From contig NZ_MDFN01000001.1 of assembly GCF_001730525.1 (NCBI RefSeq), positions 248,001-312,000 on the forward strand: DNA of 64,000 nucleotides, written 5' to 3'. The position numbers and the translations under genes are program-made. Positions 12,961 through 41,584 of this stretch are shown here, one piece after another. The first letter of the stretch is position 1, and the number at the start of each line of letters is the position of its first letter. The notes beneath the pieces are model-generated. The model was not told the DNA's origin, made no database searches, and saw only the letters and a program-made list of their open reading frames with translations. Source of the DNA: Arcticibacter eurypsychrophilus. GTDB lineage: Bacteria > Bacteroidota > Bacteroidia > Sphingobacteriales > Sphingobacteriaceae.

Positions 12961-12994
12961 ATTTAATGTTTGTATTGCAAACAGTTTGTATTAT

Positions 12995-13204
12995 TTAACC
13001 GTTCTTTTCAGGAAAGTCTGTTTCCTCCTGATTTTTTTCTATTTCCGCGTCAGTGTCATTGTCCTTAATAACTTCCAATGCTAAAGGAGTTAATTCGGTA
13101 TTTTCACCAATTGTATCATCTCCTGTACTAGCTGTATCATTCCTTTCCTCTTCTGTACCTACATTCTCTTCAGGCACCTGGTTATTGATTTCTTGATTTT
13201 TCAT
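12995..13204 (-). CDS. Small acidic hypothetical protein
   Basis: A 69-residue, strongly acidic protein (MKNQEINNQVPEENVGTEEE at its start; many E, D, N and T) with no cysteine, signal or membrane segment. It is predicted to be disordered. I do not recognise a family. It starts at ATG 13204 and ends 35 bp from the convergent pntB stop. The low-complexity composition makes coding hard to prove, but its length and its clean start and stop in an otherwise gene-free gap support a real small gene. Confidence 0.5.
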   Translation of the reverse strand: MKNQEINNQVPEENVGTEEERNDTASTGDDTIGENTELTPLALEVIKDNDTDAEIEKNQEETDFPEKNG

Positions 13205-13294
13205 AAGTAAGTTTTGTAATCAGAGAAGAATTTTTAATAAATTTTGTTTCAAAATGGACTAATTTTACTTCATAAATAAAAAAGGTTATACCTA

Positions 13295-13592
13295 ATGGAA
13301 ACAGACAATCAAATGGCGCCTGCTGTTCTGGTTGGAGCAATTATTTGTCCAGAAGATAAACAGTTTGCTTTTATTCATGTATTTTGATCATAGGAGAAAG
13401 AAAAAGGATACTTCTTTTTTCAAAAACTGAAGTAATAAAGAAGTTTAAAACTTGGGTTAGGTAGAAACAAAACCAGTAGAAGAGTTACTGGCAAATATTC
13501 AGATTATCAAAAAAGATGCTTTCTTTGCAATCAATGTCTATGGATACCGAATTAAATTAAGTGTCACCAAAAGTGCATTTTTTATTTCTTAG
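13295..13592 (+). pseudogene. Possible decayed ORF, family unknown
   Basis: From ATG 13295, 30 codons read METDNQMAPAVLVGAIICPE and onward to TGA at 13385-13387. Protein-like stretches then continue in shifted frames: 'RILLFSKTEVIKKFKTWV' (about 13402-13457) and 'VETKPVEELLANIQIIKKDA' (from 13461) running to a stop at 13590-13592. Read together they look like one protein of about 100 residues broken by frameshifts and stops. I cannot name the family, and chance open frames remain possible. Confidence 0.3.
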
Positions 13593-14078
13593 AAGTATCA
13601 TTATTTATACAGTATTTCACATAAAGAATACAATTAATCCTATAAAGTGAGCATTTTATTTTCTAGCGATATAATATTCCAGCTAGTATTATATGGGGTT
13701 GAAAAAAAATAAGATTGATGCTTTAATCCTAAAAGTGCCTTGTGCTCATGCCAAACCTTCATTTTCTTAAAAAAAAGATTTGAATTCACACCGCTTCAAC
13801 TAATAAAGTAAGAAGTTCAAAATTAGGAGGCACGTGTTTTGTAAATGGTTAGTCAACATGATATGCTATATTATTAATATTTTAATTCTTGGTTGAACCT
13901 AATTTGAGAGGCTTACTTAAACGCACTCGGCCATCTCAATCAGGCAAAATAAACAACTACACTTATAGGAGAAACATAAAAATCTCATAGCTTTTCAAAA
14001 GCTTAGTTAGTACTCCTATCATTCTCGTTTATAGCATTCAATTCTTCACGAATAAATACACAATAAATAAATAACATT
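13593..14078. other. Gene-free AT-rich region
   Basis: About 490 bp with no convincing open frame, RNA gene or repeat on either strand. The last ~150 bp should contain the promoter and leader of the DUF3494/OmpA pair, but I see no exact consensus. A short inverted stretch, AAAGCTTAG near 13998, is too small to call. Confidence 0.4.
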
Positions 14079-22462: not shown

Positions 22463-24772
22463 TTATTTAATCATGAAAGGCGTTTTAGAAACATATAAAT
22501 TATACCCTTTCACCCTTCCTGCACTATTTTTTATACGGGGAAGATAACGAAAGCCCGAAACACTTGAACTTTTACCAAGATCTATCACTACCTGATGAGG
22601 TTGCCCAGGTTTTTCTTTACTGTATTGCGTATGCCAAAAAGTAGTTGGTTGATTATCCATCAGCAAACTTGCTAAGCCATTCTCTTCCCCAAACTCTTCA
22701 CTATCAGCATACACAATGGTGTAATCTTCACGAGGGATATCCGCTCCTTTCGCATCAGTAATTCTTAATTCAGCAATGCTTGTAAAAGGCGAATCTTCAT
22801 AAGCTGCTGTACTCTCCAAACATATATACCTACCTGAAACCAGCGCAGATAGCTTCACTTCCTGCCATCCCTCTTTGTTCTCCAAAAGGCCACTTTTAAC
22901 CTTTTGCTTATTGACTAACTGAATGCGCTGTCCAGCACGGCTATGCATCAGTGAAGAATCCACTTCCGTTGACCATATCTGGTGTTTGATCCCTGTCAAA
23001 CTAAGTTTTTTAGGAGTTCCCATCTCCAAAACCTTAATCTCATTCTTCCCTTGATTTAACCAGCAACCGGGAACATATAACGTTTGTTGAGGGCCAATAA
23101 ACCAGTAGCGTCCTATTAAACGACCATTTACCCATAAAAGCCCTTTATCCAGATTTCGCGTATCAATATATGTATCCCCTACTTCAGAAACATCAAACGC
23201 TGCGGTATACAAATGCGGGTATCCTTCTTTGATAGCAGAAGCTTTAAACTGATCAATATTAGTTAAAGGCAACGTGTAATGTTGCCAGCTCTTTAATTCC
23301 TTCCCATTGATATACACCCCTTCAGTAATCCCTTTCCTTTCCTGATCAATGGCATTTCCAAAGTTAACACGTGCCTGGTGTTCCACTAAGATCTCCAGCC
23401 GATGTTTACCCTTACCGGCAGTAAAAGGCAAGGCTGATTGATTAAGCCTTCTGTCCAATGTTCCAATCTTTTTACCATCCAGATATATAGTTGCCCTATC
23501 CATTACCCGCTTAATCAGCAGGGTTCCTTTTAATACCCCGCTAAATTCGTGCGCATATAAAATCAGTCCTGATGTCTGATCAAGAGCTTCCATATTTTGA
23601 GGAGTATCAAATAGCTTCGCTTCAGGAAGATTATCTTCCAATGATGCATAAGCCTTCAGCTGAATTTCAGGTATCTCAATTTTCTTTATAGGCACAGGCA
23701 ACTCTGGTAAATCCAAATCCGGAAACTTATCCAGTATCACTTTTCTAAAAGCGAAGTACTTATCCGTAGGTTCCCCATTTTCATTGAGTAGCGCATCATA
23801 ATCATAACTAGTCGTATAAGGAGTATAATAATTGTTGCCCCCATTTGCACCTGCAAAAAAGCCGTTACTGGTTCCTCCATGAAACATATACAAATTAACA
23901 GAGACCCCATTATCAATCATCCACTTAAAGTCATCCAGTTTTTCCTTTACCGTATGTACTTCATGCTTTCCACCCCAGTAATCAAACCAACCTGTCCAAA
24001 ATTCCGAATTGAACCTTGGTGCATCAGGTGCATACTTTTCGAATATAGAAAAGTTCTTTTGTGCATCACCTCCAAAATTAATGGAAGGCATCACACCATC
24101 AATATGAGCCTTGTCAAAATAATTCTTTCCGGCCCAATCACAATGGAATAAAGGAACATCTACACCTGCGTCTAGAAGTGTATTTTTTATCCCATTCAGA
24201 TATACTTTATCACCAGCGTACACGCCGTACTCATTCTCCACCTGAACCATGAGTACATTACCTCCGTTCGTAATTAGGGATCCTTTAATCTGCTCAACCG
24301 CTTTACGAAGATAAGTCAAAGTCTGTGGCATATAGTTTGGGTCAGATGACCGCATCACAACGTTCTTTTTCTTCAATAACCATGCGGGAAGTCCCCCAAG
24401 ATCCCATTCTGCACATGTATATGGGCCAGGACGAATAATCACCCAAAGGCCTTCTTCTGCGGCCTCTTTACAAAATTCTGCTACATCCAGGGTTTCACTA
24501 AAGTTATATTGTCCTTCTACAGGTTCATGGGCATTCCAAAACATATAGGTACAAATGGCATTTAGCCCCATAGCTTTCGCTTTTTTAAAGCGGTCCCGCC
24601 AGTAAGGGCGCGGCACCCGGGCATAATGCATTTCGCCAGAGATAATTTGAAAAGGCTTACCATCGAGTAAAAACTCATTTTTACCAACCGCAAAGGTGTG
24701 TTTAGCTGTTTGTGCGAACGAATGATTTATCAGCAGGCTGGTCAGAACTAAAAACAGATATTTCTTTAACAT
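22463..24772 (-). CDS. GH35 beta-galactosidase
   Basis: About 769 residues from the ATG at 24772 (MLKKYLFLVLTSLLINHSFA, a clean signal peptide); an upstream ATG at 24799 would spoil it. The catalytic barrel has 'SGEMHYARVPRPYWRDR', 'RPGPYTCAEWDLGGLPAWLL', the acid/base Glu in 'MVQVENEYG' (about E181) and the nucleophile Glu in 'FNSEFWTGWFDYWG' (about E257). Beta-sandwich domains follow ('YVPGCWLNQGKNEIKVLEMG'), and the C-terminal ~120 residues resemble a discoidin-like module ('TTFWHTQYS', 'HQVVIDLGKSSSVSGFRYLP'). It would remove beta-galactose from arabinogalactan side chains. It stands alone between two gaps of 118 and about 190 bp. Confidence 0.95.
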   Translation of the reverse strand: MLKKYLFLVLTSLLINHSFAQTAKHTFAVGKNEFLLDGKPFQIISGEMHYARVPRPYWRDRFKKAKAMGLNAICTYMFWNAHEPVEGQYNFSETLDVAEFCKEAAEEGLWVIIRPGPYTCAEWDLGGLPAWLLKKKNVVMRSSDPNYMPQTLTYLRKAVEQIKGSLITNGGNVLMVQVENEYGVYAGDKVYLNGIKNTLLDAGVDVPLFHCDWAGKNYFDKAHIDGVMPSINFGGDAQKNFSIFEKYAPDAPRFNSEFWTGWFDYWGGKHEVHTVKEKLDDFKWMIDNGVSVNLYMFHGGTSNGFFAGANGGNNYYTPYTTSYDYDALLNENGEPTDKYFAFRKVILDKFPDLDLPELPVPIKKIEIPEIQLKAYASLEDNLPEAKLFDTPQNMEALDQTSGLILYAHEFSGVLKGTLLIKRVMDRATIYLDGKKIGTLDRRLNQSALPFTAGKGKHRLEILVEHQARVNFGNAIDQERKGITEGVYINGKELKSWQHYTLPLTNIDQFKASAIKEGYPHLYTAAFDVSEVGDTYIDTRNLDKGLLWVNGRLIGRYWFIGPQQTLYVPGCWLNQGKNEIKVLEMGTPKKLSLTGIKHQIWSTEVDSSLMHSRAGQRIQLVNKQKVKSGLLENKEGWQEVKLSALVSGRYICLESTAAYEDSPFTSIAELRITDAKGADIPREDYTIVYADSEEFGEENGLASLLMDNQPTTFWHTQYSKEKPGQPHQVVIDLGKSSSVSGFRYLPRIKNSAGRVKGYNLYVSKTPFMIK

Positions 24773-33143: not shown

Positions 33144-36100
33144 TTAAAATGAAGCACTTAAACCAATGTTATATACGGTTTGAATCGGATAACCAAGACC
33201 ATTACCACCCATTTCCGGATCCCAGATCTTAAAGCTACTTATTGCTCCCAGGTTAGTGCTGTTTAAGTAAATCCTAATATTGCGCATTGCCAGCCTTTTC
33301 ACAAATCTATCAGATACGTTGTATCCAACTTCTACACTTTTTAACCTTAAGAAGCTGCCATTCCTCATCCACCAAGTAGACGTTTGATTGTTATTGTCTA
33401 TAAAATTGGGACTTAAGCGCGGCCACATAGCATAACTATCACGGTTATCCTCTGACCAATAACTCTCAGATATTGCTTGGAGCAAGCCATTCTGGCTACC
33501 ACCATTTAATACAAAAGGGGCTATATTCTTAGGATTTATAAAAAAGGAAGAACGAGCTGAACCCTGTATAAACGCAGAAATATCAAAGCCCTTAAACCCT
33601 ATTGTTCCTCCAAATCCATAAACAATTTCGGGGGATGTTGGAAGACCAATAGGAACCATATCCGCATCACTAATAACACCATCGTTGTTGATATCACGGT
33701 ACTTTATATCTCCACCTCCGTAAGTTGTTCCTGGTGTTCCAGCTAACTGAACAGGGGAATTTTTGGCTTCATTATCATCTATAAACAAACGCTCGGCAAC
33801 ATAGCCAAAAGCCTGCGTAGTTGGCATACCTACATGATATCTATAAGTTTCATTAGCATTGTATGTTGGTTCATCATAGATGAGAATTTTGTTAGCTGCA
33901 TATGTAAAATTACCTCTTGTTTGTACATACCATGAATTTCCAAATGATTTATTATAATTCATAGAAAAATCAAATCCTTTACTCTCAGCCTTATTGGTGT
34001 TAGCTTGTACATTTGCCTGAAGTCCCATTGTTGTTGGAATGTATGTTCGTCCAGTCAATATATTGGACCTTGAGTTTTTATATACATCAATTGTTAAATC
34101 AATTGAATTTAAAAACCTTAAATCTGCCCCAATATTAATTTGTTTAGACCTCTCCCAAGTAATTAATGGGTTTGCGTATCTTGATACAGAAACACCATCT
34201 TTATAATAAGCGTTTAGTTCGCCAAACGATGCTCCATAACTACCATTGTTCATGTTAACTTCCGACATATAGAAAAACCGATCTCCAGAGGCACCAATCT
34301 GATCATTTCCTACAAGGCCATATGTTGCTCTAAGCTTGAAAGAATTAATGACTTTAGTTAATGGTTCAAAGAATTTCTCATTAGAGACAACATACCCTAA
34401 ACCAAAAGATGGAAAGAAGCCAAAACGATCACTTTCAGAAAAGCGTTCCGAACCATTGTACCCAAAGTTAAATTCAGCAAGATAACGGTTGTCAAACCCG
34501 TAGGTAGCTCTTCCTGACACACCTTGATTTCTTGATGGTAAAGAAAGTTGTAAGCTACCTGCATTGCCGGCCAGGTAATTACGCATAGTTGTAATTAACA
34601 TTCCACTTACTGCATGCTTTTCCTTAAAAGTATGGTTATAGTTCAAAGCTGCTTCTAAATAAAAAGTAGAATTAAGCAACTTGCTACCTTCCGAATAATT
34701 TAGATATTCAGTTCCGGTAGTACCAATGGATCCTGTTCCGCCTGGATTTAAAACTTGCAAATCAATGGATGCATCTGGCAGTTCCGAAGATGAATAATAA
34801 AACGGAGCGTATTCCCTGGATAAATCAAAATAAGAATAACGCTTTGCATAGGTCATCATTCGCGCATTCAATCCTGGCACAATAAATTTCAAATCTTGTT
34901 TAAGCTCAATTTGAGTCTGTAATGTTGAAGTATTATATTCCGAATATCCCTTCACCATTTCAGCATATGGATTTACATATAAGCCGTTGTTTGGTGTAAT
35001 CGCGTTACCAAACAGTGAGTGCGTAGTAAAGGGCATTAAACTACTAGGATATACTGCAGGAAACATGACTGGATTTGACCAAATAGCTTGATTAAATATC
35101 TTTTGTCCACCATTGATTCTATTGCCATTTGAATCATACCCGCCAACAGGTCCTGAATAATCATCAAACTGTCCATAAACCCTTATTATAGCCTCAGTTG
35201 TATTGGTAAGGTCTAAGTTTACATTAGATCGTACTGAATAATTTTTAATTTTTATATTATTATTAAAATTATTGACCCCATCTACTTTAAGTGCGCCGTT
35301 GTCAATATTATATGTACCTGCTACATAATAACTAGCCTTTGATCCACCTCCAGATATATTTAGATTATAACGGCTGTTAACTGTATAGTCTTTGATCAAT
35401 TGATCAATCCAATTATTACTAGGATATAACAATGGATTCTCTCCTTTAGCTGTTGCGTCAATTTTAGTCTGTAAGTAAGGTAACACAGCTAATGGGTTCC
35501 TTGTTAATGAAGCCTCATTCGCCATATTCATATAGGAAATATTATCGGCAAATTGAAAGTTCCTGGTATTTGATGACACAGAATTCTCAGCTCTAAAACT
35601 AAACTTGGTTTGACCGGCTTCTCCAGATTTAGTAAGCACAAGAACAACACCATTTGCTCCGCGTGCTCCATATACTGCTGACGCTGTAGCATCCTTTAAA
35701 ACATTAAAAGAAGATATATCATCAGCTTGCAAACGTGCTAGATCACTTTGTGAAGATTCTATACCATCAATTAAAATTAAAGGATCTTGCTTTCCAGTGC
35801 CGAATGTTCCCAAACCGCGAATAAAAAACTGTGCATTATCTGCTCCAGGCTCCCCACTTCGTTGATAAGAAATCAAACCTGCAACCCTTCCTGCCAACAT
35901 TGTTGTTAAATTGCTGGTTGGCCCTTTCAATGCTTTTGGGCTGATTGAAGTAATAGAACTGATTACACTAATTTTCTTTTGCGTACCAAAACCCACAACA
36001 GTTACCTCGCTTAGTGCGTTTTCATCATTTTCAAGGAAAACATTAACAATATAAATGCCCTCCGCATTTTTTTCATAATCGGCTACAGCCACTGTCTTGG

Positions 36101-36389
36101 GTTTATAACCTATCATAGTAAATAGCAATCTGCCAGACCTAGGTAGGTTGATAACGTACCGTCCGTTTTCATCTGTAGAAGCACCTCTGTTTGTTCCTGA
36201 AACTTTAACACTGGCACCCGGTAAAGCACCTATTGAATCGCTAACAGTTCCTCTAACAATTATTGGTGTCTGTGCAAATGCAGCGGTACTTCCAATAAAT
36301 AAAACATAATAAATAAAGACTTTAAAAATTGATTTTAAGGGACTACAGGTTGAATAAAATCGAAACTTTTTAAGTAGTTTTCTGTTCAT
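33144..36389 (-). CDS. SusC-family TonB-dependent outer-membrane transporter (pair 1)
   Basis: About 1,081 residues from ATG 36389 (MNRKLLKKF), with a hydrophobic signal ending 'TAAFAQ'. A carboxypeptidase-like CarboxypepD domain comes first ('VRGTVSDSIGALPGASVKVS', 'DENGRYVINLP'), then the SusC signature 'VTVVGFGTQKK', the plug ('GRVAGLISYQRSGEPGADNA', 'DPLILIDGIES', 'DASASAVYGARGANGVVLV'-like region), and a 22-stranded barrel. No N-terminal STN domain is present, so no transmembrane signalling to an anti-sigma factor is expected. It imports oligosaccharides with SusD1. It heads a four-gene operon. Confidence 0.95.
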   Translation of the reverse strand: MNRKLLKKFRFYSTCSPLKSIFKVFIYYVLFIGSTAAFAQTPIIVRGTVSDSIGALPGASVKVSGTNRGASTDENGRYVINLPRSGRLLFTMIGYKPKTVAVADYEKNAEGIYIVNVFLENDENALSEVTVVGFGTQKKISVISSITSISPKALKGPTSNLTTMLAGRVAGLISYQRSGEPGADNAQFFIRGLGTFGTGKQDPLILIDGIESSQSDLARLQADDISSFNVLKDATASAVYGARGANGVVLVLTKSGEAGQTKFSFRAENSVSSNTRNFQFADNISYMNMANEASLTRNPLAVLPYLQTKIDATAKGENPLLYPSNNWIDQLIKDYTVNSRYNLNISGGGSKASYYVAGTYNIDNGALKVDGVNNFNNNIKIKNYSVRSNVNLDLTNTTEAIIRVYGQFDDYSGPVGGYDSNGNRINGGQKIFNQAIWSNPVMFPAVYPSSLMPFTTHSLFGNAITPNNGLYVNPYAEMVKGYSEYNTSTLQTQIELKQDLKFIVPGLNARMMTYAKRYSYFDLSREYAPFYYSSSELPDASIDLQVLNPGGTGSIGTTGTEYLNYSEGSKLLNSTFYLEAALNYNHTFKEKHAVSGMLITTMRNYLAGNAGSLQLSLPSRNQGVSGRATYGFDNRYLAEFNFGYNGSERFSESDRFGFFPSFGLGYVVSNEKFFEPLTKVINSFKLRATYGLVGNDQIGASGDRFFYMSEVNMNNGSYGASFGELNAYYKDGVSVSRYANPLITWERSKQINIGADLRFLNSIDLTIDVYKNSRSNILTGRTYIPTTMGLQANVQANTNKAESKGFDFSMNYNKSFGNSWYVQTRGNFTYAANKILIYDEPTYNANETYRYHVGMPTTQAFGYVAERLFIDDNEAKNSPVQLAGTPGTTYGGGDIKYRDINNDGVISDADMVPIGLPTSPEIVYGFGGTIGFKGFDISAFIQGSARSSFFINPKNIAPFVLNGGSQNGLLQAISESYWSEDNRDSYAMWPRLSPNFIDNNNQTSTWWMRNGSFLRLKSVEVGYNVSDRFVKRLAMRNIRIYLNSTNLGAISSFKIWDPEMGGNGLGYPIQTVYNIGLSASF

Positions 36390-36708
36390 ATACATATAGT
36401 TATTTAGTTAATAATTGTTCATTAATTTGTTGAATAGTGACTTTATCATCAGGATCAAATCGACTTTATTCAATGAAAGTTTACGTTTACTTTAAAAACG
36501 AAGGTTAGACATACTCAAAGCTTTTTTTGAATTGTTTATAATTGATTTTAATTTGGTTTATACAAATAAACGTTAAGTTTTGATGCCACTTAAGGGGCAG
36601 GACAATATGATAAGGGGGTCAAATCGTTATTTATTACTTTAATAAGGTATTAATAGTCATTTAAGCTTTAAACACATCATTTATTTAAGACTCTTGTAAG
36701 CTCAATTA
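36390..36708. other. Upstream region of susC1
   Basis: A 319-bp AT-rich gap that must hold the susC1 promoter. No exact TAnnTTTG element was found in the right orientation; TTTATTTG on the minus strand near 36563 is one mismatch away without a clear TTG. The candidate operator at 36593-36624 lies inside it. Confidence 0.4.
36593..36624. promoter_or_regulatory. Candidate PUL operator upstream of susC1
   Basis: AAGGGG, then about 20 bp later AAGGGGG, with the right half reading ATGATAAGGGGGTCAAAT. The site at 22411-22443 ends ATGAATAAGGGGTAAAT with the same spacing of G-runs. The two could be bound by one regulator encoded outside the window. Evidence is only this resemblance. Confidence 0.3.
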
Positions 36709-39300
36709 TTAATCTACAAATCCTAAACTCATCTGCAATACATCGCTATTTAACATTATTCGATATGCACCACGCTCAATTTGCAAACCTTTAAGCTAAT
36801 ACATCTTGTATTTTTCAGAAACGGAGTCAATACGCAAAAACGCATAAGGCGTAAATTCATTTCCAGGCTCCAATATTACACTCACACTTTTGTCACTTTC
36901 ATTGAATGACACTAATCAAACTTACCCGCATCCAAAGTAAGCCAAAGTCCTAAGCAGCAATATACACTCTTAATTTGCTCCTATTGTAATCTTAACATGG
37001 ATCCAATCTCCCTCTTTCTTAATATTACCTCCAAAGGATAGACATCCCAGTTCTTTACTCATTGTAATATACGTTTCAGTATTAACGGCATATCCAAAAA
37101 AATTAGAGCCGTAATCTCCCAACAATCCGTCTATCTGAAGCGGCGATGGAAAAGCATGAAAAGCCGCAGAACCAAATCCATCTTCTGTAATGTTAGATAT
37201 AGATCCCAACACCCCCCCTTGCCCAACGCGTAAAAGATATAGGTCATCCGGATTTTTTATAATCGGTATAGAACAGGAATCACATTAAGTCCTGACCAAT
37301 AATGATGTAACTGTCGCTCTATCCGAGACAATTTACCTCCATAAAGAAAATCCCAGTACCGTCTTGCACTTCCATTATAACCCCAATGTGAAATACTGGG
37401 CATATAAGCAAGAATAGCATTTATGGTGGCCTTGGCCTTGTCTATGCAACCAAAATAATCAGACCAAAGATAAACGTCTTCCTGACCGGTAGAATCCCAT
37501 GGAATCTCACTTCCAAAAGGATATTGCAAGATATCCCAGTGATTAGCACGCTTTTTCATAGCTTCTTCAAGCTTTGCAGACATTTCTGTCAAGCCCTCTG
37601 CTTTCAAATCCTGTAAGATCAAAAAGAAAACCGTTCCTTCCATCTGGCCAAACTGTGCATATTAAGGTGCCTGTTCAATCATGGCCATCATCGTATGATA
37701 GGAATTTTCCAGATACCATTTCCCGTTTTGCTCAGTCACCATGCCCCGATAATTTCGCGCCAAGCGGTATAGTACCCAATGTGCAACAGCTAACATGAGG
37801 ATAATATAAGAACGCCCCAGGTTATTAGCATCCTTTAAAGGCCATGCAGCTCATGTTTTATAATTAATGTTCGTACTATAGGTCCCCTTTGGCATTTTGT
37901 TAGGTTCATAACAAAATTAGCTTTTCTTTACGCCGTATTTATGCTTTCCTTCGCTATATTGAATCTACCCCCATAAGGTAAGAATAACAAATTGTTCCAG
38001 CTTTTTTACTCCTTCCCGATCTGGTTGAATTAACTCTTTCATTATAGGACTTCTTTTAAAAATATCGTTGGAATCTCGAAACCATTGCTGATAAGTATGA
38101 AACCTTCCAAAGTCGGCAACCATGTGCCCCTCCGGCTTAATCACCTTATAGTTAATCGTCTGTCTAAGTCAATTTTCATAAGTAATCGTCAACCTGGCTC
38201 GTCCCTATACTTTATCATTAATCGCATAAGTCTTCAATTCTCTACTACTGGATGGCAGTTGTTTTAATACTTATGCTCCCTTAGGCCCTATTTCCATAAA
38301 AGAAACCTTTTCAGGATAACTAAGAAACAAACGACCATCTACATCCTGAGGAAGGACATATCCGGGAACACATATCGCTACAGGACGTTTATTTTTAATC
38401 AAAGCCGCCTCTATTCCTTTAACAGAATCAGCTAGTATAAACTACAATCCATAAGAACGCAATTCACCTGGTTTCAAAACCACAGAAGTTGGATTATTCC
38501 ATGGCTTAGCATTTTTCCAGTCCTGTCCCGCACGTGCTTTGCTAAAAACCGTCCACTCGTAAAAGCCTTCAAAAGCTATTCCTCGGGGAGTAGGATCATC
38601 CAACAAGGGACTATATGCCTCAAAAGGTGTTTTACCATACGGAACAACAAGCAGCACTTTACCCTGACCATTTAAACGGGTAACCTGTAAATATCCGGCA
38701 TCCTGACCAATATAAGGGTCATAAAAAACATTGCTCCTGTGAGCTTCATCCACAGTTTTACCCTCCAGAATATTATTAAAGAAAGGAATTCCTAACGACC
38801 CTATTTCTACCGCCTGTTTACTTCTATTTCTTATCTCAAACCGCAGCATCAGGTGATTATTCTTTATCTACCAGTAACGTTTAATATGTAGTGGCAAATC
38901 TGTTGCATACGTAGGTGAAAGGTCAGCGGCGGCAAGAAACGATCCCTTTACACTTAAAACCCTTACAGGTGACCGTTTAGTTGCTGATTAATAATTTTTT
39001 CATAAGGATTCTCCTTCAACCCTTATACGCAAATTTAAATCGCCCTGATACAAGCCATCCTTATCGCGCTGGGGAATCCGATCAAATGGCATAAAACCCA
39101 CTCCATCAGCTCCTTTAGGGAATACTACCGCAACGGTTTGCGATGCACGTACCAACTTTAAGTTGAAATCTACCCCTTGCAAATCCATATACCCCTTTTC
39201 CAAACCCAATGAGGAAGGCCGTTTTGATAATGCTTCCCAAGGGTTTTGTGCACATAGTTCTAATGATGCAGATCCCAGTAAAAAAATACGATTATAAAAG
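36709..39300 (-). pseudogene. DUF5695-like PUL protein, broken by many in-frame stops
   Basis: Minus-strand reading gives a secreted protein of about 860 codons. It opens with a signal-like 'NRIFLLGSASLELCAQNPWE' but no ATG. Family-like segments include 'DFNLKLVRASQTVAVVFPKG', 'FYDPYIGQDAGYLQVTRLNG', 'LLDDPTPRGIAFEGFYEWTV', 'AAWPLKDANNLGRS', 'SHWGYNGSARRYWDFLYGGK' and 'GSISNITEDGFGSAAFHAFP'. These recall DUF5695 proteins of Bacteroidota PULs (from memory). From 39290 to 37257 a single frame is kept with stops whose lowest coordinates are 39000, 38988, 38868, 38442, 38271, 38205, 38169, 37965, 37917, 37851 and 37662. Near 37257, and again near 36920-36940, frameshifts occur. A TAG at 36796 and the final stop at 36709 follow. 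It lies about 20 nt past the S9 peptidase start region in the same operon order. Confidence 0.85.
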
Positions 39301-39319
39301 TGTTTATTCTCAACTTAAT

Positions 39320-41584
39320 TTATTGATTTCTATCTGGTGGATCAACTTGCAATAGACTTTTAACAAAAAAATCTCTCAGCTTTCTTCTTCCATATGGACC
39401 ACCATCACTGTGTCCCATTCCCGGAACAGTGAGCAGTTCGAAGTTCTTATTTGCCTTGATCAAAGCATCCGCCACTCTGTAAGTAGATTCTGGCGGAACA
39501 TTGGTATCGGCTTCTCCAACAATCAATAAAAGCTTCCCTTTTAATTTCCGCGCATTAGTCACATTCGATTGTTGTTCATAATGCGGCCCAATAGGAAAAC
39601 CCATCCATTGTTCATTCCACCATTGCTTATCTACACGGTTATCATGACAACCACATGCAGATACACCTGCTGTATAAAACTCAGGATGAAAAAGCAATGC
39701 TCCAAGTGAATTCTGCCCTCCCGCTGAAGTACCGTAAATACCAACCCTTTTCGTGTCGATGTAATCATATTTTGCTGCAAGCGCTTTAATCCATAAAATA
39801 CGATCGGGAAAACCACCATCAGCCAGATTCTTCCAGCACGTATCATGGAAAGCTTTTGAGCGGTTAGCCGTTCCCATTCCATCCATCATCACGACCATAA
39901 ATCCAAGTTCAGCTATACTCTGCATTTCACTGTATGATCTGAAATTTTTAGGCACAAACGAATCTTGCGGCCCTGCATATATATATTCGATTACCGGATA
40001 GCTTTTTAAGCTATCATACTGGGAAGGCCGGCATAGAATGCCCCATATATCAGTTTTACCATCTCTTGCCTTTGACACAAAAACTTCCGGAAGTTTCATC
40101 CCTGTTGCAGTTAATGCACTCATGTCTGCACGTTCAACTTCCATAACCAAACTTCCATCTGTTGTACGATGAAGTTCGGTAATAGGGGCAGTAGAAATTG
40201 TAGAATAGGTATCCAGATAATATTTACTATCCGGAGAATAGGTCACTTGATGGGTTGCACGGGCAGTGTTAAGCGTAATTAGATTTTTACCATTAAATCC
40301 AATCCGATAATGATGGATATAATAAGGGTCCTCTCCCTGATTTATTCCGCTGGCACTAAACCAGACCTCTCGTTTTGACCGGTCAACGCTATCTACAGTA
40401 CGAACAATCCAGTTCCCCTTAGTGATCTGAGATTTAACTTTCCCTGCTTTTGTATCCACAAGGTACAAATGACGCCAGCCATCCTTCTCAGATGACCATA
40501 ACATTTCATCTGTATCTGGTAGATAATGCGTATAAGTGCGTTGTTCATAAATGAATGTTGACGTCTTTTCGTCTATAATAGTACGGGTTTCTCCAGTGAA
40601 TGCATCCACTTCTATGACCCTGTACCGTTGATGTCCCCGGTCTGTCTTTGCATATAATACATGACGACCATCCTTCTCCCAATGCAGTTGAGGCATACCC
40701 AAAAAATCTATTTTTCCCACCTTAACCCTCAAGCCCCTCTTTTTCAACACATCGAATGTGTGCATTTCATAAGAAGTAAACTCTTCACCCGGTTGAGCAT
40801 AATCATGCGACTTTAATTCAGCTCTTGTGGTATTAGGTTGTGATGTAAGAAGATAGTATACCTTTTTGATTTCTTTAGGATCAGATAAATAGCTAATAAT
40901 ATGTTTGCTATCAGGAGACCACTTAAGCCCATCAAATGGCTTCTCTTTCGTGCCATGAATACTTAAGCGACTTTCAGCGCTTCCGTCAACAGGCTTTACA
41001 AATATGTTTCCCTCTTTAATAAACGCTATCCATTTCTTATCCGGAGATAAATTGTCTCTTCTTCCACCTCTTCGCCAATATTCAAATTCTCCCATGATAA
41101 CAGGCTTCTTTTCCCGATCCATAGCTTTAGACAGCGAGTATCTTAGCGGATCAAATTCCAACCATTGATTGTCCACTTGAAACAACAGATTTTTTCCATC
41201 TTTTGCATATATGATTCCATTCAACCTTAACTTTGTTGCATCAAAAGGCTTACCTATAAAAGATGTTAGCGCCTCTGCCAGTCGCCCGGAATCAAATGCG
41301 TTGGTTTTACTCTTACTTTTGACATCAATATATATAAACTCTATGCACCCATCCTTAGACATCACATTTTTGAATATAAAACCACTACCATCAGGTTTCC
41401 ATATAGCTTTTACATCCGTTTTGAATACGGTATTAATAACTGCCGAATCCATTGAAGCGGCCTGTGCATATGATTTTAAGACCTGCTCCCTTGCTGGTAA
41501 ATATTGAGGTAAGGGACTTTTCTGTGCATTAACCAGTAAAGGAATACTCAGTCCAATAAATAAGACAAAGTAAGATTTGAACAT
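39320..41584 (-). CDS. S9 family peptidase (DPP-IV/prolyl oligopeptidase type), in the PUL
   Basis: A 754-residue secreted protein with a signal peptide ending 'IPLLVNAQ'. The N-terminal ~480 residues form a DPP-IV-type beta-propeller ('RRGGRRDNLSPDKKWIAFIK', 'DEMLWSSEKDGWRHLYLVDT'). The C-terminal alpha/beta-hydrolase has 'GIYGTSAGGQNS' (nucleophile S620), D693 in 'LIVGEADTNVPPES' and H725 in 'VPGMGHSDGG', so the triad is intact. Known members cleave after proline; some PUL-associated alpha/beta-hydrolases are esterases instead. It sits 91 nt after GH97 in the arabinose-removing operon. A proline-directed peptidase could attack the hydroxyproline-rich protein of arabinogalactan-proteins (inference). 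Confidence 0.85.
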   Translation of the reverse strand: MFKSYFVLFIGLSIPLLVNAQKSPLPQYLPAREQVLKSYAQAASMDSAVINTVFKTDVKAIWKPDGSGFIFKNVMSKDGCIEFIYIDVKSKSKTNAFDSGRLAEALTSFIGKPFDATKLRLNGIIYAKDGKNLLFQVDNQWLEFDPLRYSLSKAMDREKKPVIMGEFEYWRRGGRRDNLSPDKKWIAFIKEGNIFVKPVDGSAESRLSIHGTKEKPFDGLKWSPDSKHIISYLSDPKEIKKVYYLLTSQPNTTRAELKSHDYAQPGEEFTSYEMHTFDVLKKRGLRVKVGKIDFLGMPQLHWEKDGRHVLYAKTDRGHQRYRVIEVDAFTGETRTIIDEKTSTFIYEQRTYTHYLPDTDEMLWSSEKDGWRHLYLVDTKAGKVKSQITKGNWIVRTVDSVDRSKREVWFSASGINQGEDPYYIHHYRIGFNGKNLITLNTARATHQVTYSPDSKYYLDTYSTISTAPITELHRTTDGSLVMEVERADMSALTATGMKLPEVFVSKARDGKTDIWGILCRPSQYDSLKSYPVIEYIYAGPQDSFVPKNFRSYSEMQSIAELGFMVVMMDGMGTANRSKAFHDTCWKNLADGGFPDRILWIKALAAKYDYIDTKRVGIYGTSAGGQNSLGALLFHPEFYTAGVSACGCHDNRVDKQWWNEQWMGFPIGPHYEQQSNVTNARKLKGKLLLIVGEADTNVPPESTYRVADALIKANKNFELLTVPGMGHSDGGPYGRRKLRDFFVKSLLQVDPPDRNQ

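Follow-up and report, generated by a model that had tools for sequence, protein, structure and literature searches.

A stop-rich DUF5695 gene remnant, probably a unitary pseudogene, in a polysaccharide utilisation locus of Arcticibacter eurypsychrophilus

The window, by which we mean the whole stretch of 64,000 nucleotides analysed here, contains between positions 22463 and 54312 a polysaccharide utilisation locus with two SusC/SusD pairs, GH35, two GH43, GH97 and S9 peptidase genes, and two genes for arabinofuranosidases, presumably of family GH51, all of which are open. Judging from this gene content, an arabinogalactan-protein is a plausible substrate for the locus. Among the scanned genes of the locus only one, belonging to the uncharacterised family DUF5695, is broken. 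A gap of about 1.1 kb elsewhere in the window (12961-14078) holds open frames of at most 69 codons. The broken gene, its lesions and its immediate neighbours are as follows:

39320..41584, minus strand: open upstream neighbour, an S9 peptidase gene (DPP IV type)
36709..39313, minus strand: whole DUF5695 gene remnant, from a TTG at 39313 to the original stop TAA at 36711-36709 (end points read by eye)
39284..39313, minus strand: signal-peptide-like start (TTG), one base off the main frame (read by eye)
37260..39290, minus strand: main frame with eleven stops (frameshift-aware alignment; DUF5695 E 4.5e-259 with stops read as X)
First bases of the main-frame stops, minus strand: 39002 TGA, 38990 TAA, 38870 TAG, 38444 TAG, 38273 TAA, 38207 TAG, 38171 TGA, 37967 TAG, 37919 TAA, 37853 TGA, 37664 TAA
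38045..38046, minus strand: junction of a 108-bp (36-codon) in-frame deletion that removed a conserved segment (alignment, and a jump in the Pfam match from 377 to 414)
37785..37805, minus strand: compensating frameshift pair, -1 then +1, with slips at about 37805 and 37788 (alignment, penalty-dependent)
36709..37259, minus strand: C-terminal part, with four single-base frameshifts (37259, 36972, 36955 and 36914) and a stop at 36798
33144..36395, minus strand: open downstream neighbour, a gene for a SusC/TonB-dependent receptor

The match of the main frame to the Pfam DUF5695 profile (PF18951) reaches 862.4 bits against a cut-off of 25.2. A first-pass annotation of the sequence had counted eleven in-frame stops in a single DUF5695-like frame, and the alignment confirms this count exactly between 39290 and 37260, with four TAA, four TAG and three TGA codons extending from 39002 to 37664 on the minus strand; a twelfth stop, the TAG at 36798, lies in the C-terminal part. 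In a search of the same genome the profile, which is 857 positions long, matches in three abutting pieces (1-377, 414-675 and 677-851), so that the remnant resembles the family from position 1 to 851 and differs from it in its broken frame and in the loss of 36 codons from a conserved segment. Within the C-terminal part the piece 36970-37212 corresponds to profile positions 692-767 (E 1.7e-27). Complete homologues have 895-936 codons, whereas the remnant no longer has an uninterrupted frame of the expected 900 or so; open pieces of 135, 128 and 80 codons are left in it.

For the analysis of indels the DNA was aligned, with frameshifts allowed, to a profile of 12 intact homologues. The stretch from 39290 to 37257 had been described as free of frameshifts, a description overturned by the hidden 108-bp in-frame deletion and by the compensating -1/+1 pair; hidden compensating indels in this stretch are nevertheless few, not many. 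Of the 36 positions lost with the deletion, 16 do not vary among 35 homologues (I424 to A457 of the intact protein L040 of Pararcticibacter amylolyticus, counted by hand), so this lesion by itself would probably abolish the enzyme; at its junction there is no copy of any listed repeat. The -1/+1 pair appears at frameshift penalties of -10 and -14 and is absent at -18 and -24; we retained it because the shifted reading restores the motif YPHV, which is invariant in 35 homologues. At the harshest penalty the alignment has 13 stops and three frameshifts. The start codon had also been reported as missing, which is correct for the main frame only: a TTG with a signal-peptide-like reading exists at 39313, six bases after the stop of the S9 peptidase gene, and a single -1 slip in a run of T near 39283 joins this reading to the main frame (by eye). 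In the same-genus genome G001, 12 bases separate the S9 stop from the start of the gene, which is at about the same place as the TTG of the remnant, and the N termini of intact homologues are likewise signal-peptide-like (by eye). Leaving uncounted two single-residue gaps, at 39045 and 38784, which may be natural, the lesions total 20, namely 12 nonsense changes, seven frameshifts (six by alignment and one by eye) and one large deletion. The usual indel-to-substitution ratio in bacteria is near 0.1; set against the roughly 60 substitutions estimated below, seven frameshifts and one 108-bp deletion make an ordinary ratio, and the earlier impression that indels are scarce did not survive.

The genome, which we take to belong to a relative of Pararcticibacter amylolyticus, is 99.99% complete and has DUF5695 at this place only, the family search having found no second copy in it. 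The family occurs in three of the six genomes of the genus, this one included; both further copies, those of G001 and G004, are open. A tree of 87 rows places the remnant as sister to both of these, with an SH-aLRT of 92 from a quick method and with its long branch flagged. A survey of the order Sphingobacteriales recovered the family in 141 of 400 genomes, and among the rows listed in-frame stops occur only in the window's copy. The 80 named loci are the best 80 of 473, a selection that favours intact copies; the 92 extracted homologues, minus five duplicates and one truncated at the edge of a contig, leave 86 distinct complete homologues (L040 and L015 are identical over the compared core), every one of which is open. 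Four other copies are short or broken-looking: G129:C29:60113-62663, consisting of two overlapping open pieces; G358:C1:718682-719272, with a frame of 329 codons; G194, with 786 codons covering profile positions 1-721; and G313, with pieces on two contigs. None of the four has internal stops, and no matching stop-bearing pseudogene was available for calibration among the rows listed.

The gene-neighborhood of the remnant is shared with its closest relatives chiefly through the upstream S9 peptidase gene. The best relatives of this gene are in G004 (61%) and G001 (59%); the one in G001 immediately precedes the intact DUF5695 gene, and the one in G004 is situated about 4 kb upstream of it. Thus an open orthologue occupies the corresponding place in G001, with the same neighbour directly upstream and a sister position in the tree. 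More widely, 25 of the 80 named loci have a same-strand S9 gene upstream within the flanking sequence retrieved; in G020 an S9 gene of 47% adjoins DUF5695, and the closest S9 gene of that genome sits elsewhere. Other genes of the locus recur near intact copies, at a level of at least 40%, in 0 to 3 of 92 loci. Examples are a 55% SusC homologue downstream of the intact DUF5695 gene of Mucilaginibacter roseus (L103) and GH43 and a GH51-type gene at 65-69% near that of L044.

The model of L040 (L040:5983-8733), an intact homologue of the lost protein, has a mean pLDDT of 86.6 and matches the PL27 L-rhamnose-alpha-1,4-D-glucuronate lyase BACCELL_00875 (PDB 5nok and 5no8) with a Z of 28.1 over 638 residues at 3.1 A and 16% identity, the next-best structure entry having a Z of 16.7; Foldseek gives an E of 2.8e-30 for the same pair. 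PL27 enzymes are described in PMC8377490 as releasing rhamnose from gum arabic by beta-elimination and as combining a beta-sandwich with an (alpha/alpha)6 barrel. The predicted fold of L040, the intact homologue that was modelled, contains both an N-terminal beta-sandwich and an (alpha/alpha)6 barrel. The likeness to BACCELL_00875 lies in the predicted fold, whereas the two differ in sequence: identity is 16%, a 35-sequence HMMER profile found no match among PDB chains at E up to 1, and a phmmer search of PDB chains with L010 returned six tetracycline repressor chains at E 0.8-0.99 and no PL27 entry. On the strength of the model, DUF5695 is a candidate distant lyase family with a predicted PL27-like activity, and the enzyme lost here may have been a PL27-like lyase acting on arabinogalactan-type glycans.

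The most unusual aspect of the remnant is the proportion of stops to missense changes. The remnant has a median identity of 58.1% to the 86 homologues, compared with 59.8% among the homologues themselves, and it deviates at 25 of 301 columns conserved at 90% or above, at 20 of 253 at the 95% level and at 7 of 165 invariant columns. When each of the 86 homologues was assessed with its relatives of at least 65% identity set aside, mean deviations were 4.8% at the 90% columns and 2.8% at the 95% columns; one open homologue, L016, is as deviant as the remnant at the 90% columns (8.4%) and less so at the 95% and invariant ones (5.1% and 1.6%). We then simulated decay on the 86 homologues, with 12 runs each and hence 1032 runs per age, at 11 ages up to 300 substitutions and under three spectra. 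The remnant fits an age of about 60 neutral substitutions, at which about three stops are expected (up to about four with a G-to-T-rich spectrum) as against the 12 seen. At least 12 stops together with so few deviations arose in at most one of 1032 runs at any of the 11 ages by the two conserved-column measures, and in none of 1032 when the log-probability measure was matched. A simulation from 12 homologues likewise indicated that 11-13 stops would bring median deviations of 23-29%, compared with the 8.3% observed, and its runs matched on deviations reached at least 12 stops in 0 to 0.4% of cases. Simple arithmetic gives 2.0-4.7 expected stops, or 4.0-8.0 at the upper limit of the missense load, where P ranges from 0.0009 to 0.028 in five of six cases and is 0.11 with the most stop-prone ratio. 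Nonsense is thus not in the proportion to missense given by a simple neutral substitution model, the stops being about four times the expectation, and the earlier statement that nonsense dominates while the residues between stops stay recognisable is borne out.

Several features of the missense load bear on how this excess should be read. Of the columns on which the two same-genus copies agree, 144 of 589 differ in the remnant and 172 of 589 in the open S9 neighbour, a comparison between different proteins in which the same-genus S9 copies are also closer to each other (78.5%) than the DUF5695 copies are (71.7%); the lower count of the remnant argues against a general missense surplus in it. 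Its branch in the tree, at 0.82, somewhat exceeds those of its sisters, which measure 0.66 and 0.76 with the inner branch included, and this leaves some room for a missense load above that seen at the conserved columns. The mutation spectrum was considered as a cause of the excess by trying uniform, transition-rich, GC-to-AT, G-to-T-rich and one-directional spectra: the missense-per-nonsense ratio of about 15-18 falls at most to about 8, which is insufficient by itself. Inspected by eye, the changes at conserved columns are not dominated by any one type. Decay that varies along the gene was rejected as well, with deviations of 10/123, 12/136 and 3/42 in three segments, no one of which drives the result.

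The stops may also be set against the indels, for which published pseudogenes of Sodalis-type symbionts offer a benchmark. According to Table 2 of PMC3499248, nonsense changes make up 19% and 16%, respectively, of the 2249 and 4316 disrupting mutations counted in them, or 26% and 23% when compared with internal indels only. The 12 nonsense changes among the 20 lesions of the remnant depart from these last shares with binomial P of 0.0016 and 0.0005, respectively, and counting 12 of 22 against 26% gives P 0.0047, although the yardstick is rough, as symbionts may differ in indel rates, and the missense and indel comparisons share the count of 12 stops and are not independent. The pseudogenes of the Sodalis-allied symbionts, as tabulated in that paper, resemble the remnant in that nonsense changes, frameshifts and deletions have inactivated a gene where it stands, while relatives keep it. 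They differ in that small deletions are the commonest lesion there, whereas nonsense accounts for 12 of 20 here, and in that three other families tested in the present genome are without stops. Our literature search turned up no direct precedent for a nonsense excess, for such a decay pattern or for stacking of loss-of-function alleles in bacterial pseudogenes, a statement that concerns this search and no wider absence; for DUF5695 itself it returned only a paper on a fungal velvet regulator.

Taken together, these observations make it probable that the remnant is a unitary pseudogene, the sole DUF5695 gene found in the genome, which died in place within the polysaccharide utilisation locus. 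It carries several disabling lesions, relatives retain intact orthologues, and a functional second copy was not found. Its descent would have been vertical and its inactivation recent, with about 60 substitutions since, and the genome would thereby have lost a PL27-like lyase step on plant arabinogalactan-type glycans while keeping the surrounding genes. Ordinary gene decay fits better than any hidden use. What counts against decay by simple neutral substitution alone is the presence of 12 stops in place of about three. The case was, however, chosen for being stop-rich, so that an event of 1-in-1000 frequency is to be expected from a scan of many pseudogenes, and for this reason we regard a chance extreme picked out by the scan as the likeliest source of most of the excess. 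If the excess were real, loss of the gene could have been favoured, with independent null alleles (stops and frameshifts) from different strains stacked by recombination, or extra stops could have been favoured for halting the synthesis of a damaged exported protein from an mRNA still needed for the locus. Nonsense at about four times the number expected from missense, the share of 12 in 20 lesions against 23-26% in the Sodalis-type comparison of PMC3499248, and the open state of the named genes around the remnant all speak for such selection. Against it, the test was applied post hoc to a case selected for its stops, an early first stop should leave later ones almost neutral, and the survival of the open pieces noted above indicates that any silencing was not thorough; we hold selection, the principal alternative to chance, to be unlikely. 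Its specific form, in which the stop excess would be the signature of favoured loss of a rhamnose-cap lyase gene, with null alleles selected in a recombining population and stacked into one stop-rich, missense-poor haplotype, is rather more doubtful.

The remaining explanations require either that the stops are not real or that the remnant still has a use. The genome is a draft of 93 contigs, which leaves some room for sequence or assembly error; but 20 lesions fall within 2.6 kb while none occur in the scanned open flanking genes or in 130 family matches elsewhere, and random errors would give many more missense changes than stops. Error, which the first-pass annotation had listed among possible causes, is thus very improbable, the lesions being confined to one gene between open neighbours. 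That the stops are read through by recoding or suppression, so that the protein is still made, might be suggested by the conserved residues between them, but this is the least credible of the alternatives. All three stop types are used, as had been pointed out earlier against recoding; three of the stops stand on tryptophan columns (W in 86, 86 and 78 of 86 homologues), the frameshifts and the deletion of a conserved segment break the protein as well, and 0 of 130 other matches in the genome (46 SusD, 78 Plug and 6 sulfatase) contain stops. A role of the remnant as DNA or RNA found no supporting evidence and appears highly unlikely: as a donor cassette it would have no second copy in the genome as recipient, and as a regulatory RNA it shows no Rfam match at E up to 1, no terminator-like site and six promoter-like sites compared with a mean of 11.0 in shuffles.

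By itself the remnant is one more dead gene. If the excess of stops holds in sister strains, the contrast between stops and missense changes at family-conserved columns could serve as a test of favoured loss versus passive decay. The PL27 fold predicted for an intact DUF5695 protein and the frequent S9 neighbours of the gene provide a concrete enzymatic hypothesis for an uncharacterised family. In two same-genus genomes (L019:10751-19317 and L020:10486-11952) the intact gene is found near genes for peptidases (S9, M1), together with an amino-acid permease and DUF885 in G001 and a POT peptide transporter in G004. These peptidases and transporters hint that the substrate is a glycoprotein and not a plain polysaccharide.
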